This document shows, in pieces, positions 4,399 to 50,722 of a stretch of 64,000 nt of DNA. This DNA is from Ralstonia sp. SET104 (lineage in GTDB: Bacteria; Pseudomonadota; Gammaproteobacteria; Burkholderiales; Burkholderiaceae): the NCBI RefSeq assembly GCF_003851545.1, contig NZ_BHVX01000011.1, positions 62,001-126,000 on the forward strand, given 5' to 3'. The notes below the pieces were generated by a model. It made no database searches. It worked only from the letters and a program-made list of their open reading frames with translations, and was not told the origin of the DNA. A program made the position numbers and the translations under genes. Within the stretch, counting starts at the first letter, position 1. Each line of letters begins with the position of its first letter.

Positions 4399-5094
4399 GT
4401 GAACCCGCTCGAACTGAGCAAGGCCATCGGCGTCGTCACCCAGGACGACATCGACAAAACGGAAGCAGTGCAAGGCGCGCCGCGTTCCACCGTGCTGGTG
4501 CGCGAGCTTGCTGCGCACCATCGGTCGCGCCTGCTCAAACACCTGCTCGCCCTGGGCGAAGAAGACCGCCTGCTGCGTTTCGGCCAGGTGGTGCGGGATC
4601 ACGTCATCGAGGCATACGTCGACAGCATCGACTTCGACCACGACAAGGTCTTTGGCGTCTACAACGAGCGCCTGGAGCTGGTTGGCGTGGGCCACCTCGC
4701 CTACCTGCGCGACAACCCGCAGGGGCGCGTGGCGGAGTTCGGCGTGTCGGTGTCGGAATCGGCGCGCGGCAAGGGCGTGGGCAGCGCGCTGTTCCAGCGT
4801 GCCGCCATGCACGGCCAGAACACCAAGGTGCGCACGCTGTATATGCACTGCCTGTCGCGCAACGCGGCCATGATGCACATCGCCAAGAAGGCCGGCATGC
4901 GCGTGCAGTACGCCTACGGCGAAGCCGATGCCTACCTGGAGCTGCCGCCCGCCGACACGATGAGCCTGCTGACCGAAGCCATCGATGAACAAGTCGCCGA
5001 TCTCGACTACATGCTCAAGCGCAACCTGCGCGACGTGCGCCGCTTCGGCCAGCGCTTCTGGCGCTCGCTGGCGCCGCAAAAACGCGCGGTCTGA
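4399..5094 (+). CDS. GNAT-family N-acetyltransferase
   Basis: A 231-residue protein with one GNAT fold at residues ~30-190. The acetyl-CoA binding motif A is visible as VSESARGKGVGSALFQRA, followed by the NAAMMHIAKKAGM helix usual for these enzymes. The substrate is unknown. I chose the GTG start at 4399 because AGGA stands a suitable distance before it and the family alignment starts there; an upstream ATG at 4315 would read through the presumed leader. The C-terminal ~40 residues are basic and helical. It is a single gene with its own terminator. Confidence 0.8.
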   Translation: MNPLELSKAIGVVTQDDIDKTEAVQGAPRSTVLVRELAAHHRSRLLKHLLALGEEDRLLRFGQVVRDHVIEAYVDSIDFDHDKVFGVYNERLELVGVGHLAYLRDNPQGRVAEFGVSVSESARGKGVGSALFQRAAMHGQNTKVRTLYMHCLSRNAAMMHIAKKAGMRVQYAYGEADAYLELPPADTMSLLTEAIDEQVADLDYMLKRNLRDVRRFGQRFWRSLAPQKRAV

Positions 5095-5110
5095 TCGCAT
5101 TACTCACACG

Positions 5111-5140
5111 AAAAACGCCCGGCTCAGACCGGGCGTTTGT
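5111..5140 (+). terminator. Intrinsic terminator after the GNAT gene
   Basis: ACGCCCGG and CCGGGCGT form a perfect 8-bp stem with a six-base loop, followed by a short T-rich run. A-residues on the left side could also let it work leftwards. Confidence 0.75.
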
Positions 5141-5271
5141 ATTTGGCGCGACATGGCAGCGTCAACCTCCTTTGACCACCCTGGTGAATGCGTGCGGGCC
5201 AAGCACATGGCGCCTGCCGGAGTGTTCACTGTCAGCATCCCCGCCCGTCTCGAGGATGCCTTCCCGCTGTT

Positions 5272-5541
5272 TTAGTTCTCTTCCCGCTCAAGCACGTCCA
5301 GCAATTCCCACCGGTCGGGATCGACCAGCACGCCCTCCAGCGTGGTCAACAGATACGCACCAATCGCGTCAAGAAACCCCGCGCGATATTCGGGCGGATG
5401 CATCCCAACGATGAACGCGAATTCCCAGCGCAGCGCTTTAGGCCGGAATTGCCGGTACGCATGCAAATCGGTTTGCGTGCGACGCAGGAAATCCCGCGCG
5501 GCCAGTGCGCCGGTCAGGTAGTGGCGTTTGCGGTGGGTCAT
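5272..5541 (-). CDS. Small unknown protein under a C4-like antisense RNA
   Basis: An 89-residue protein starting MTHRKRHYLTGALAARDFLR. I do not recognise a family. It is basic at the N-terminus and acidic at the C-terminus (DVLEREEN), with no signal peptide or membrane helix. The ATG at 5541 has a strong site ACGGAGGTG (5554-5546), and it overlaps by ATGA the stop of a 29-codon leader, so it is probably translationally coupled. The same frame is open further upstream and an ATG at 5670 would give a 132-residue form, but that start has no ribosome site. Its control region resembles phage immunity circuits, so a phage- or plasmid-derived origin is plausible. Confidence 0.6.
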   Translation of the reverse strand: MTHRKRHYLTGALAARDFLRRTQTDLHAYRQFRPKALRWEFAFIVGMHPPEYRAGFLDAIGAYLLTTLEGVLVDPDRWELLDVLEREEN

Positions 5542-5627
5542 TGGGCACCTCCGTAAGCGGTGTGCGCAGGGGTGCGAGGCGGGGATGGATAGGATGCGGG
5601 GCGGTGCCCGCTGGATGCGAACAACAT
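5538..5627 (-). CDS. 29-codon leader peptide between the C4-like RNA and the small protein
   Basis: A short frame begins MLFASSGHRPASYPSPPRTP and ends TAYGGAQ. Its start at 5627 follows ACGGAGG (5638-5632) by four bases. Its stop overlaps the start of the next gene (ATGA at 5541-5538). The peptide is Pro/Ser-rich and has no recognisable fold; its job may be only to let ribosomes reach the downstream gene. This arrangement of a short first frame coupled to a second matches the icd-ant logic of P1 and P7, where C4 RNA blocks the first frame. It is inferred from spacing and signals alone. Confidence 0.45.
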   Translation of the reverse strand: MLFASSGHRPASYPSPPRTPAHTAYGGAQ

Positions 5628-5679
5628 AGAACCTCCGTAGTTCTACAACGTAGGAGGCCCGTTCCTTCATCGCCAGACG

Positions 5680-5775
5680 GAGGTGGCGGGCCCGACAGTG
5701 GGGCTGGCGAACCGGCCTACGGAGAACCGGCAGACCCGGAGGTCTCCCCACTCGGCCCGCCATAGGGGCGTGCGA
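5680..5775 (-). ncRNA. C4-like antisense RNA (P1/P7/P4 immunity-type), copy 1
   Basis: Read leftwards, the sequence matches what I remember of the C4 antisense RNA family (Rfam C4). An outer 8-bp stem TGGCGGGC/GCCCGCCA (5762-5755 with 5691-5684) encloses a 7-bp stem AGTGGGG/CCCCACT (5752-5746 with 5103-class partner at 5703-5697) and two hairpins, AGACC-TCCG-GGTCT and CCGG-loop-CCGG. The second hairpin loop carries CTCCGTAG, an exact complement of CTACGGAG at the leader-peptide ribosome site (5640-5633). The 3' tail CACCTCCGT (5685-5677) is an exact 9-base complement of the ribosome site of the 89-residue protein (5554-5546). These are the a1/a2 and b1/b2 pairings expected of C4. Confidence 0.75.
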
Positions 5776-5871
5776 GTGCACGGACAAAACGCTTACGCGA
5801 AAAGCCGCTCCGTAGAAACTACTTTTGGTGGATCGCCAGACCCGTGCCACCACTTGCGCGATGGCCGACGG

Positions 5872-5900
5872 ATTATAGCGAGCGTCATCCTGACGACGAA
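5872..5900 (-). promoter_or_regulatory. Promoter for the C4-like RNA locus
   Basis: On the minus strand a perfect -10 box TATAAT (5877-5872) stands 17 bases after a weak -35 hexamer TTCGTC (5900-5895). Transcription would start near 5865, about 100 bases before the folded C4 part, and run through the leader peptide and small gene. Confidence 0.5.
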
Positions 5901-5985
5901 ATCCGACTAGTCTGATTGCGCCGCACATCCACGCATTTCAGCCGGCTGTGGCCTGAAAGCCCTGGCTAGAACAGTGAGGATTGGC

Positions 5986-6474
5986 TCAAACCACCACCGG
6001 CAACGCCGTCGTATCCTTGATCCGCTCCAGCGCAAAACTGCTCTTCACATCAATCACCGCCGGGTGGGCGAGCAGTTGGTCGCGGATGAACCGCGCGAAG
6101 TGCTCCATGTCTTCCACGAACACCTTGAGCAGGTAGTCCATCTCGCCGGTCATGGCGTAGCACGTGACCACCTCGGGCCAGGTGGCGACGGCGGCGCGAA
6201 ACAGGTCTGACGGCGCCTTGCCCTTGGGCGCCCCGCCCTGCTTCTCCAGCCGCACGTTGATATACGCCGACAGCCCCAGGCCGATCTTGCCGGGGTCGAG
6301 CAGTGCGGCGTACTGGCGGATCACGCCGGACTCCTCGAGGCGGCGGATGCGTCGCAAACACGGGCTGGGCGACAGGTTCACCCGCTCGGCGACTTCCAGG
6401 TTGGTGAGGCGGCCGTTGTTCTGCAGGACTTCCAGGATCTTGCGGTCGATCTTGTCGAGTTCCACTTTATTCAT
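5986..6474 (-). CDS. Lrp/AsnC-family transcriptional regulator
   Basis: A 162-residue feast/famine regulator. The N-terminal winged helix ([20 protein letters not shown] through [19 protein letters not shown]) is followed by the RAM/AsnC_trans_reg domain that binds amino acids and forms octamers. The ATG at 6474 has GGAG at good spacing; an ATG six codons upstream has none. It is divergent from 4-hydroxyphenylpyruvate dioxygenase across an AT-rich gap, so it most likely controls tyrosine/phenylalanine breakdown in response to an aromatic amino acid. That target is inferred from position only. Confidence 0.88.
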
Positions 6475-6629
6475 TTTGTTGCTCCGCACCAATTAATTCG
6501 GCAATTTTCTTGCGCAAATTTAGCAAGGTAGGCACAAGTTCGCAATTTTTGCGTGGATTGACACTTCTACACTGCGAGGATCGTCAAAGACCTGAGCGCC
6601 CCAACGCTCCAGCCCTGCAGGAGACCGCT
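6475..6629. promoter_or_regulatory. AT-rich divergent promoter region between lrp-like gene and hpd
   Basis: This 155-base gap is clearly more AT-rich than its surroundings, with runs such as TTGCGCAAATTT and CGCAATTTTTGCG that form short imperfect palindromes. AsnC/Lrp proteins bind this kind of sequence. TTGACA at about 6558-6563 could be a -35 element for hpd, but I see no clear -10. Confidence 0.45.
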
Positions 6630-30170: not shown

Positions 30171-31073
30171 CTACCGATCGCGCACCTTGAACCACGCCGC
30201 CCGCCGAGCGTTCTCATCGGCGCGGTATTCCAGATCAAATCGCCGGGATTCATTCAGAACGTGTCGCCAGGACTTGCAACCGTAGCTGTCCGGTGTCAGC
30301 CCCGGATGCTTGCGATGGATCAGAGCGATCGCATGGTCGAGCCGTGTCCACCCGCGCTCGCCAGCATTCAGCGCTGCTGCTTCGCGCAGCGCACCGACAA
30401 TCTCGGCCTCCGCCCACCGCGTCGTTGCGACAGGCTCCGCGCCGTCGTTAAAACATCCCGAAAGCCCCGGTGCTTGCATGAAGGCCGCAGCGGCGATTCT
30501 GGCCGCGTCCACGCCTTTCACCCATGCGCACAACTTCCCGTATTGGGTATCAATGCGAGCGTAGCAACCTTCGAGATAGTCGCAAGCAGCCGAACAGCCT
30601 TCGCACGTGTGGAGATCGAACCGGCTGCCAAAGTCATGCACGAGATCATTGCGTGCATCGACCAGATGCCTCAGCTCCGCTTTTGTCCGGGCATAGTCTT
30701 CGGCAGATAGCCGCATCGTACTGCGATAGCCGAACGCGGGCGATCCGATCAAAGGTGAGGCATCGTCGATGCGTGTATGCGGCGCTTCGCTGGTTGTAAA
30801 GAAAGACCGCAGGAGAACGTCGATCTGGTAACCAAGCGGCTTGGTCGCGTGTTCTTTGACGCGCTGCACACGAATTCTTTCCAACGCGTATGCAGGCCCC
30901 GAAAGCTGGTGATGTGCAACCAGATACTTGATCAGCGTTTCGTATTGCTGGAGCCGAAGCAGGCAGCGGCCGACCAGGCGTTGGACTTCGTGTTGCAAGT
31001 CCGGTGCATCGTGCTGGCTCGGCGGGGAGCGAGGCCCACTGGTGATGAGCGCAGCCTCGGTCGATAGAACCAT
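30171..31073 (-). CDS. LOTUS (OST-HTH) domain protein under a C4-like antisense RNA
   Basis: A 300-residue cytoplasmic protein. The last ~65 residues (GWTRLDHAIALIHRKHPGLTPDSYGCKSWRHVLNES...) fit an OST-HTH/LOTUS winged helix, a fold that in other proteins binds RNA. The first ~200 residues are helical, with HLVDARNDLVHDFG resembling the RNase-toxin-antitoxin HEPN/MNT-type Rx4-6H neighbourhood (RNDLVH), so a HEPN-like half is possible but unproven. The ATG at 31073 has GAGGA seven bases upstream. It stands alone between a terminator and a C4-like RNA. Target and role are unknown; the context suggests a phage-derived or defence gene. Confidence 0.65.
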   Translation of the reverse strand: MVLSTEAALITSGPRSPPSQHDAPDLQHEVQRLVGRCLLRLQQYETLIKYLVAHHQLSGPAYALERIRVQRVKEHATKPLGYQIDVLLRSFFTTSEAPHTRIDDASPLIGSPAFGYRSTMRLSAEDYARTKAELRHLVDARNDLVHDFGSRFDLHTCEGCSAACDYLEGCYARIDTQYGKLCAWVKGVDAARIAAAAFMQAPGLSGCFNDGAEPVATTRWAEAEIVGALREAAALNAGERGWTRLDHAIALIHRKHPGLTPDSYGCKSWRHVLNESRRFDLEYRADENARRAAWFKVRDR

Positions 31074-31109
31074 TGTCCTGTCCTCTGATGAATTGAGGAA
31101 CCACCCACC

Positions 31110-31215
31110 GCGAGGGGTGGGCGGGCACACGACAAGGGCGCAAACACCGATAAGACCAACCAAGAACCGGCAGGGCCGAAGCCCTCCCTGCCGAGGCCCG
31201 CCCATATAGGCGAAC
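31110..31215 (-). ncRNA. C4-like antisense RNA, copy 2
   Basis: Read leftwards the sequence shows the C4 pattern: outer 8-bp stem TGGGCGGG/CCCGCCCA (31204-31197 with 31125-31118), an inner hairpin AGGGC-TTCG-GCCCT, and the usual GCCGGTTCTTGG and CTTGTCGTGTGCCC stretches. Upstream the minus strand carries TTAAGA-N18-TTATGG, a weak promoter-like pair. Just downstream TTCCTC (about 31102-31096) can pair with the ribosome site GAGGA(C) of the LOTUS gene, and CCTTGTC inside the RNA can pair, with one bulge, with GACAATGG around its start codon. The antisense pairing is weaker than in copy 1. Family assignment is from memory of the C4 consensus. Confidence 0.68.

Positions 31216-50646: not shown

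Positions 50647-50722
<76 letters not shown>

Follow-up and report, generated by a model that had tools for sequence, protein, structure and literature searches.

Results

Elements of the locus

We analysed 64,000 nucleotides of Ralstonia sp. SET104 (RefSeq assembly GCF_003851545.1, contig NZ_BHVX01000011.1, positions 62,001 to 126,000 of the forward strand), hereafter the window, in whose numbering all positions are given, and we describe in it a probable C4-type antisense switch on the minus strand. C4 RNA is a known immunity device of phages; in the c4-icd-ant operon of phages P1 and P7 the first frame is coupled to ant. A first-pass annotation made from the letters alone had proposed such a circuit on the chromosome, with a promoter, a C4-like RNA, a leader and, overlapping it, an 89-residue frame, and all these elements are present on the minus strand. 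In the order of the transcript strand, they are the upstream sites b1 (CTGGCGA, 5833-5839) and a1 (CTACGGAG, 5808-5815), the C4 RNA (5679-5767) with its antisense sites a' and b', the downstream sites b2 (CTGGCGA, 5670-5676) and a2 (CTACGGAG, 5633-5640), a leader frame of 29 codons (5538-5627) and a gene for a protein of 89 amino acids (5272-5541), which belongs to a family confined to Ralstonia that we call family A. The leader stop and the start of the 89-residue frame overlap in ATGA.

The variable site a' (CTCCGTAG, 5717-5724) sits in the third hairpin's loop, and it is complementary to a2 at the ribosome site of the leader. The second copy of its target, a1, was absent from the first account, as was the site b' (TCGCCAG, 5704-5710), whose complements are b1 and b2. 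A -10 element, TATAAT, was read at 5872-5877 and marks the likely promoter; of 146 distinct loci of the genus, 109 have the pattern TATANT 180 to 60 nucleotides ahead of C4, against 4.8 in shuffled sequences, and no full sigma-70 promoter pair passes the promoter scan at this locus.

The C4 RNA and its copies in Ralstonia

The covariance-model search that had been suggested as a check matched the Rfam C4 family (RF01695) at 5767-5679 on the minus strand with 66.8 bits, above the curated cut-off of 45, over model positions 1-87 of 87. A comparison of 115 distinct sequences from the genus shows the stems with 97.8% of the cells paired and with changes on both sides for 15 of the 18 pairs; the third hairpin's loop belongs to the most variable parts. 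The RNA thus combines a score above the cut-off, a three-stem fold with covariation, and a' and b' sites complementary to its flanks.

The locus is a member of a multicopy C4 family in Ralstonia. It had been thought that it could be a single free-standing module; instead, it is one of 19 C4 matches in its genome at E ≤ 10, 16 of them above the cut-off, and part of a family found throughout the genus. At the same threshold, 5 of 14 control genomes gave matches, none above the cut-off. All 16 Ralstonia genomes searched carry C4, with 2-20 copies each at E ≤ 1e-4 (controls, 0/14). In the taxonomic family, C4 was found in 83 of 200 genomes at E ≤ 1e-7, including the 16 of Ralstonia, and in the class in 24 of 369 genomes, with the genome of SET104 counted. 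The genus comparisons below cover 147 loci out of 191 C4 matches summed over the 16 genomes.

Co-variation of the antisense sites with their flanks

The pairing between the hairpin loop and the leader's ribosome site, which had been proposed from this locus, goes beyond chance, because, from one Ralstonia locus to the next, the loops vary together with their own start sites. The a' key is strongly variable across 78 distinct C4 loops, the sample left when duplicates and loci with short flanks were dropped, as they were in the b' tests. An exact complement of at least 8 nucleotides to a' was found in the cognate downstream region in 43 of the 78 compared with 1.8% of the non-cognate pairs, and in the cognate upstream region in 33 of the 78 compared with 0.8%. 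None of 10000 permutations reached the observed mean on either side. The b' site behaves in the same way: complements of at least 7 nucleotides occur downstream in 62 of 97 distinct cognate pairs (non-cognate, 7.3%) and upstream in 119 of 143 (13.5%), and on both sides the observed mean exceeds the largest of 5000 permutation means. In the genome of SET104 itself, a cognate run of at least 7 nucleotides, on one side or on both, is seen for 14 of the 19 loops, against a non-cognate background of 9 and 11 of 342 pairs on the two sides. We drew the layout with b1-a1 before and b2-a2 behind C4 because a' and b' co-vary with copies on both flanks. On the level of sequence comparison, membership in the C4 family, the co-variation of a' and b' with both flanks and the presence in many copies are established.

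A second pairing had been proposed between the RNA tail and the ribosome site of the second frame. The tail segment CACCTCCGT (5677-5685) is indeed the exact complement of ACGGAGGTG (5546-5554) at the second ribosome site of this locus. Over 95 distinct loci out of 105 with a family A gene (duplicates and loci with short flanks dropped), however, there is no cognate excess, with a mean of 4.24 for cognate and 4.19 for non-cognate pairs, and a mean as high as the observed one arises in 1137 of 5000 permutations. Nine nucleotides are paired in only 2 of the 95, namely this locus and L032. We therefore rejected the tail pairing as a conserved feature. The targets of the co-varying sites a' and b' all lie at the first frame or ahead of it.

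The leader frame and family A

The family A profile matches after C4 in 105 of the 147 genus loci and in none of 49 C4 loci of other genera. Of these 105 loci, 47 have the leader as a frame of its own and 41 have it joined in frame to the protein, with 17 unresolved, so that a single target site can govern either layout. Its motif GHRPASYPSPP is conserved in split and fused loci, and among five related leaders each of the 10 pairs has a dN lower than its dS. Over 46 distinct motif sequences, the third codon positions vary in SYPSPP and hardly in R, P and the first G, which suggests that an RNA element lies inside the leader, in the codons near 5612-5595. For family A, dN/dS is about 0.14-0.37 in four pairs. 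Judged by these substitution rates, the leader and the family A gene are under selection as proteins.

Family A is present in 16 of 16 Ralstonia genomes and in none of the 184 genomes from the rest of the taxonomic family, with 128 matches summed over the genus at E ≤ 1e-6. A scan of named genomes gave 25 loci, of which 22 were from Ralstonia, two from 'Burkholderiaceae bacterium 26' and one from a 'Candidatus Wolfebacteria' contig that we take to be mislabelled. We rechecked 14 family A matches without a listed C4, picked by eye with at least eight further ones left out: nine do have a C4, three above the cut-off and six at 42.4-43.4 bits, and the other five have none, two being partial genes and one lying near a contig end. 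The genome of SET104 holds ten copies, of which three or more are partial and one forms a tandem with another; every copy has a C4 no more than a few hundred bases away.

The 89-residue protein of the window has no match in Pfam or PHROGs at E ≤ 10 and none in NCBIfam, and an antirepressor such as Ant of the P1/P7 immI operon was accordingly not recognised in it. For 16 members of the family, the best Pfam and the best PHROGs matches both have E 0.16, and PADLOC gave no match. A search against solved structures returned one match at chance level (E 0.7), phage and plasmid records none at E ≤ 1, and viral contigs 28 and 48 pattern matches, none of them a relative of family A. Ribosome modulation factor (PF04957) was considered as a relative on the basis of E 0.088 for the frame of L019 alone, and it was dropped when none of the ten family A places in the SET104 genome matched it at E ≤ 10.

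C4 copies without a gene

Twelve of the 147 genus loci, picked by eye, are C4 copies without a recognised gene behind them (orphans). We defined a full target as an a2 match of at least 8 nucleotides together with a b2 match of at least 6. A full target was found for 0 of the 12 in the examined loci of their own genomes (G000, 19 of 19 loci; G005, G007, G008 and G015, all listed loci; G003, 10 of 13), which 13 further own-genome loci left unchanged, and for 10 of the 12 in another Ralstonia genome. By a2 alone, two orphans match at home. As a control by the same a2 measure, a match to another cassette at home exists for only 8 of 114 complete cassettes, whereas 90 of the 114 match one in another genome. 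Relics of lost cassettes would therefore look alike, because complete cassettes show the same pattern at home and elsewhere.

At one locus with conserved flanks, compared in four genomes, three carry a complete cassette followed by two orphans and the fourth the cassette only. The keys at this array have been exchanged between species, so that the orphan key of one is the cassette key of another. The first orphan is identical at 91 of 92 positions between two species (250/279 in the upstream and 80/95 in the downstream surroundings), and the second, in another pair, at 89 of 91 (272/302 and 73/84), gap columns being left out of all orphan and flank identities. Against the upstream part alone, Fisher's test gives p 0.003 for the first and 0.016 for the second orphan. 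Where the keys differ, the orphan C4 copies are 84-91% identical, like their surroundings (84-92%). At a second array locus, which has a family C gene, a gene-less C4 precedes a complete cassette in each of three genomes (G005:C5, L146/L177; G015:C2, L115/L162; G003:C168, L147/L043), and two of these three orphans have full targets elsewhere. The gene-less copies could represent RNA-based orphan immunity or the decay of lost cassettes.

Other genes behind C4 and the surroundings of the locus

Other C4 loci of the genus precede frames unrelated to family A. Eight of these frames (L021, L102, L107, L142, L143, L149, L150 and L183) are similar to one another, and the only one scanned, that of L142, has Bro-N, a domain of phage antirepressors. 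These eight loci are a phage-type counterpart, within the same genus, of the cassette in the window.

A second C4 in the window, at 31209-31113 on the minus strand, scores 44.5 bits, just below the cut-off. Behind it lies a gene of roughly 300 codons that encodes an OST-HTH/LOTUS domain (PF12872, E 3e-7), the whole unit spanning 30171-31209 on the minus strand; a stretch RNDLVH in this gene resembles the HEPN motif. Besides the C4 at 5767-5679, the only Rfam match above its cut-off in the window is a tRNA, and the window's only tRNA gene is one for tRNA-Ala with the anticodon CGC (50647-50722, minus strand).

The five scanned neighbours of the cassette are all host-type genes, encoding a GNAT acetyltransferase, an Lrp/AsnC regulator, 4-hydroxyphenylpyruvate dioxygenase, a Na/H exchanger and a flavodoxin-like protein, in agreement with the host setting that had been described at first. 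The lrp-hpd neighbourhood (4486-6492; L197-L212) is a variable spot. Here the cassette adjoins lrp; it lies farther off in three genomes and is a short remnant in a fourth, and in the remaining genomes no cassette match was found within the flank compared.

Discussion

We consider it quite probable that the locus is a C4-type antisense switch acting on a leader that is coupled to a family A protein. This view is based on the Rfam match, the two-sided stem changes, the co-variation of a' and b', the position of a2, the -10 element and the purifying selection. One transcript from the promoter near 5877 would carry b1-a1, C4, b2-a2, the leader and the family A gene. The C4 RNA would then be released from this transcript, release from a longer transcript by RNase P being a mark of the C4 family. 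Its sites a' and b' would pair with a2 and b2, respectively, and block initiation at the leader, which would keep the small protein off as well through the presumed coupling or the fusion of the two frames. The upstream b1-a1 might compete for C4 or help to attenuate transcription. By analogy, the action of the switch most likely follows the phage precedent and the Gifsy-1 coupling, as described in PMC5320573 and PMC4825925, respectively.

Several observations weigh against this reading. A downstream a2 match of at least 6 nucleotides is missing in 26 of the 147 genus loci, 9 of which have family A genes, and some copies therefore work otherwise or have decayed. The co-variation tests draw on related loci, a kinship that the permutations ignore. 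The full transcript folds no better than shuffled sequences (z -1.0), and the Rfam c4-a1b1 model (RF03163) has no match at E ≤ 5 in 5250-6100, despite the a1 and b1 complements.

The C4 RNA, the c4-a1b1 element and multicopy C4-like RNAs are already in print. In the excerpts concerned, the immI operon of P1 and P7 has a C4 with a' and b' sites upstream and on the same strand, with the ribosome site of the first frame as its target (PMC5320573, PMC12197685), and that frame is coupled to ant (PMC8201110). The locus shares with that circuit, so far as those excerpts describe it, the C4 fold with a' and b', the place of C4 on the same strand upstream and the first frame's ribosome site as the target. 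It differs in its host-type neighbours, in its many copies and in a family A product instead of Icd and Ant. The likeness to P1 and P7 put forward in the first-pass annotation thus holds for the position and the target of C4, whereas the pairing of the tail with the second ribosome site does not belong to it.

In Gifsy-1 of Salmonella, excerpts of PMC4825925 describe the isrK-orf45-anrP arrangement, in which a small upstream frame is coupled to a gene and an RNA controls the small frame. A small upstream frame, here presumably coupled to the gene and under RNA control, is common to both, although there a short RNA activates and here repression would be the outcome. isrK (RF01394) reaches 48.8 bits, against a cut-off of 50, upstream of the C4 in L009 and, at E ≤ 5, has no match at the locus of the window. 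The c4-a1b1 model has weak matches upstream of the other C4 copies L002, L005 and L016, all under its cut-off, and also at four of five family A loci from another set (L250, L251, L253, L255 and L256), above E 0.01 and again under the cut-off. Group 1 of Acinetobacter baumannii has many C4-like copies per genome with a varying a' loop, according to excerpts of PMC5320573; these name no neighbouring targets, whereas in Ralstonia the targets adjoin C4 and co-vary with it. On C4 RNAs of Ralstonia, we found nothing in the literature searched, which included few subscription journals and no search aimed at family A or at gene-less arrays.

Among the explanations that compete with or extend an antisense switch, the likeliest one, to which we give somewhat less than an even chance, is that the cassette is what remains of a domesticated phage immunity operon that now times an ordinary host protein, with the gene-less copies as products of decay. 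The eight C4 loci with mutually similar frames, including the one with Bro-N, and the remnants and scattered occurrence of the cassette at the lrp-hpd locus are in line with such an origin. On the other hand, family A has no match in the phage, plasmid and viral collections searched, and a housekeeping role does not need strongly different keys.

Orphan immunity genes of polymorphic toxin systems are specificity elements without a partner that lie beside a complete cassette and match the cassettes of other strains. By analogy, resident gene-less C4 copies might silence incoming cassettes of the same key in trans, if the unrepressed small protein harms or competes. The partnerless elements beside a cassette are common to both cases, but the element here would be an RNA, and no toxic activity is known for the small protein. 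The twelve orphans, ten with full targets in other genomes and none with one at home, the array of two orphans behind the cassette in three genomes with keys exchanged between species, and the better conservation of each of these two orphans, in one pair of species, than of its upstream flank all argue for silencing in trans. Against it, the matches of complete cassettes at home and elsewhere mean that remains of lost cassettes would give a similar picture, the orphans were selected by eye, and those with differing keys are no more identical than their surroundings. We regard this possibility as doubtful.

It appears less likely still that C4 works mainly by transcription attenuation, its pairing with the flanking copies deciding on read-through into the gene. 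The CI RNA of phage P4 acts in this way with seqA and seqC, as stated in excerpts of PMC4825925, and a1-b1 and a2-b2 flank C4 as seqA and seqC flank CI. Of 146 distinct loci, 51 have terminator-like hairpins ahead of C4, compared with 8.1 in shuffled sequences. At the locus of the window, however, no such hairpin was found upstream of C4, and the downstream site lies on a ribosome site, which favours a block of translation. That the cassette is a repeated sequence without function, as its copy number and remnants might suggest, is very improbable in view of the two-sided stem changes, a dN/dS far under 1 and the co-variation seen for each of two separate sites.

The antisense switch on the leader of a family A gene thus remains the reading that we prefer for this locus. 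We would give only a small chance to the broader proposal that Ralstonia holds a polymorphic RNA-keyed system, in which arrays of orphan C4 copies with exchangeable loops silence the cassettes of other strains on arrival. If it were true, it would be orphan immunity built from antisense RNA instead of protein. With targets that lie beside the RNA in most of the examined copies and co-vary with it, the C4 loci offer a natural set of many-keyed antisense switches in one genus. Should the copies without a gene work in trans, bacteria may retain antisense RNAs directed at cassettes that they have since lost.
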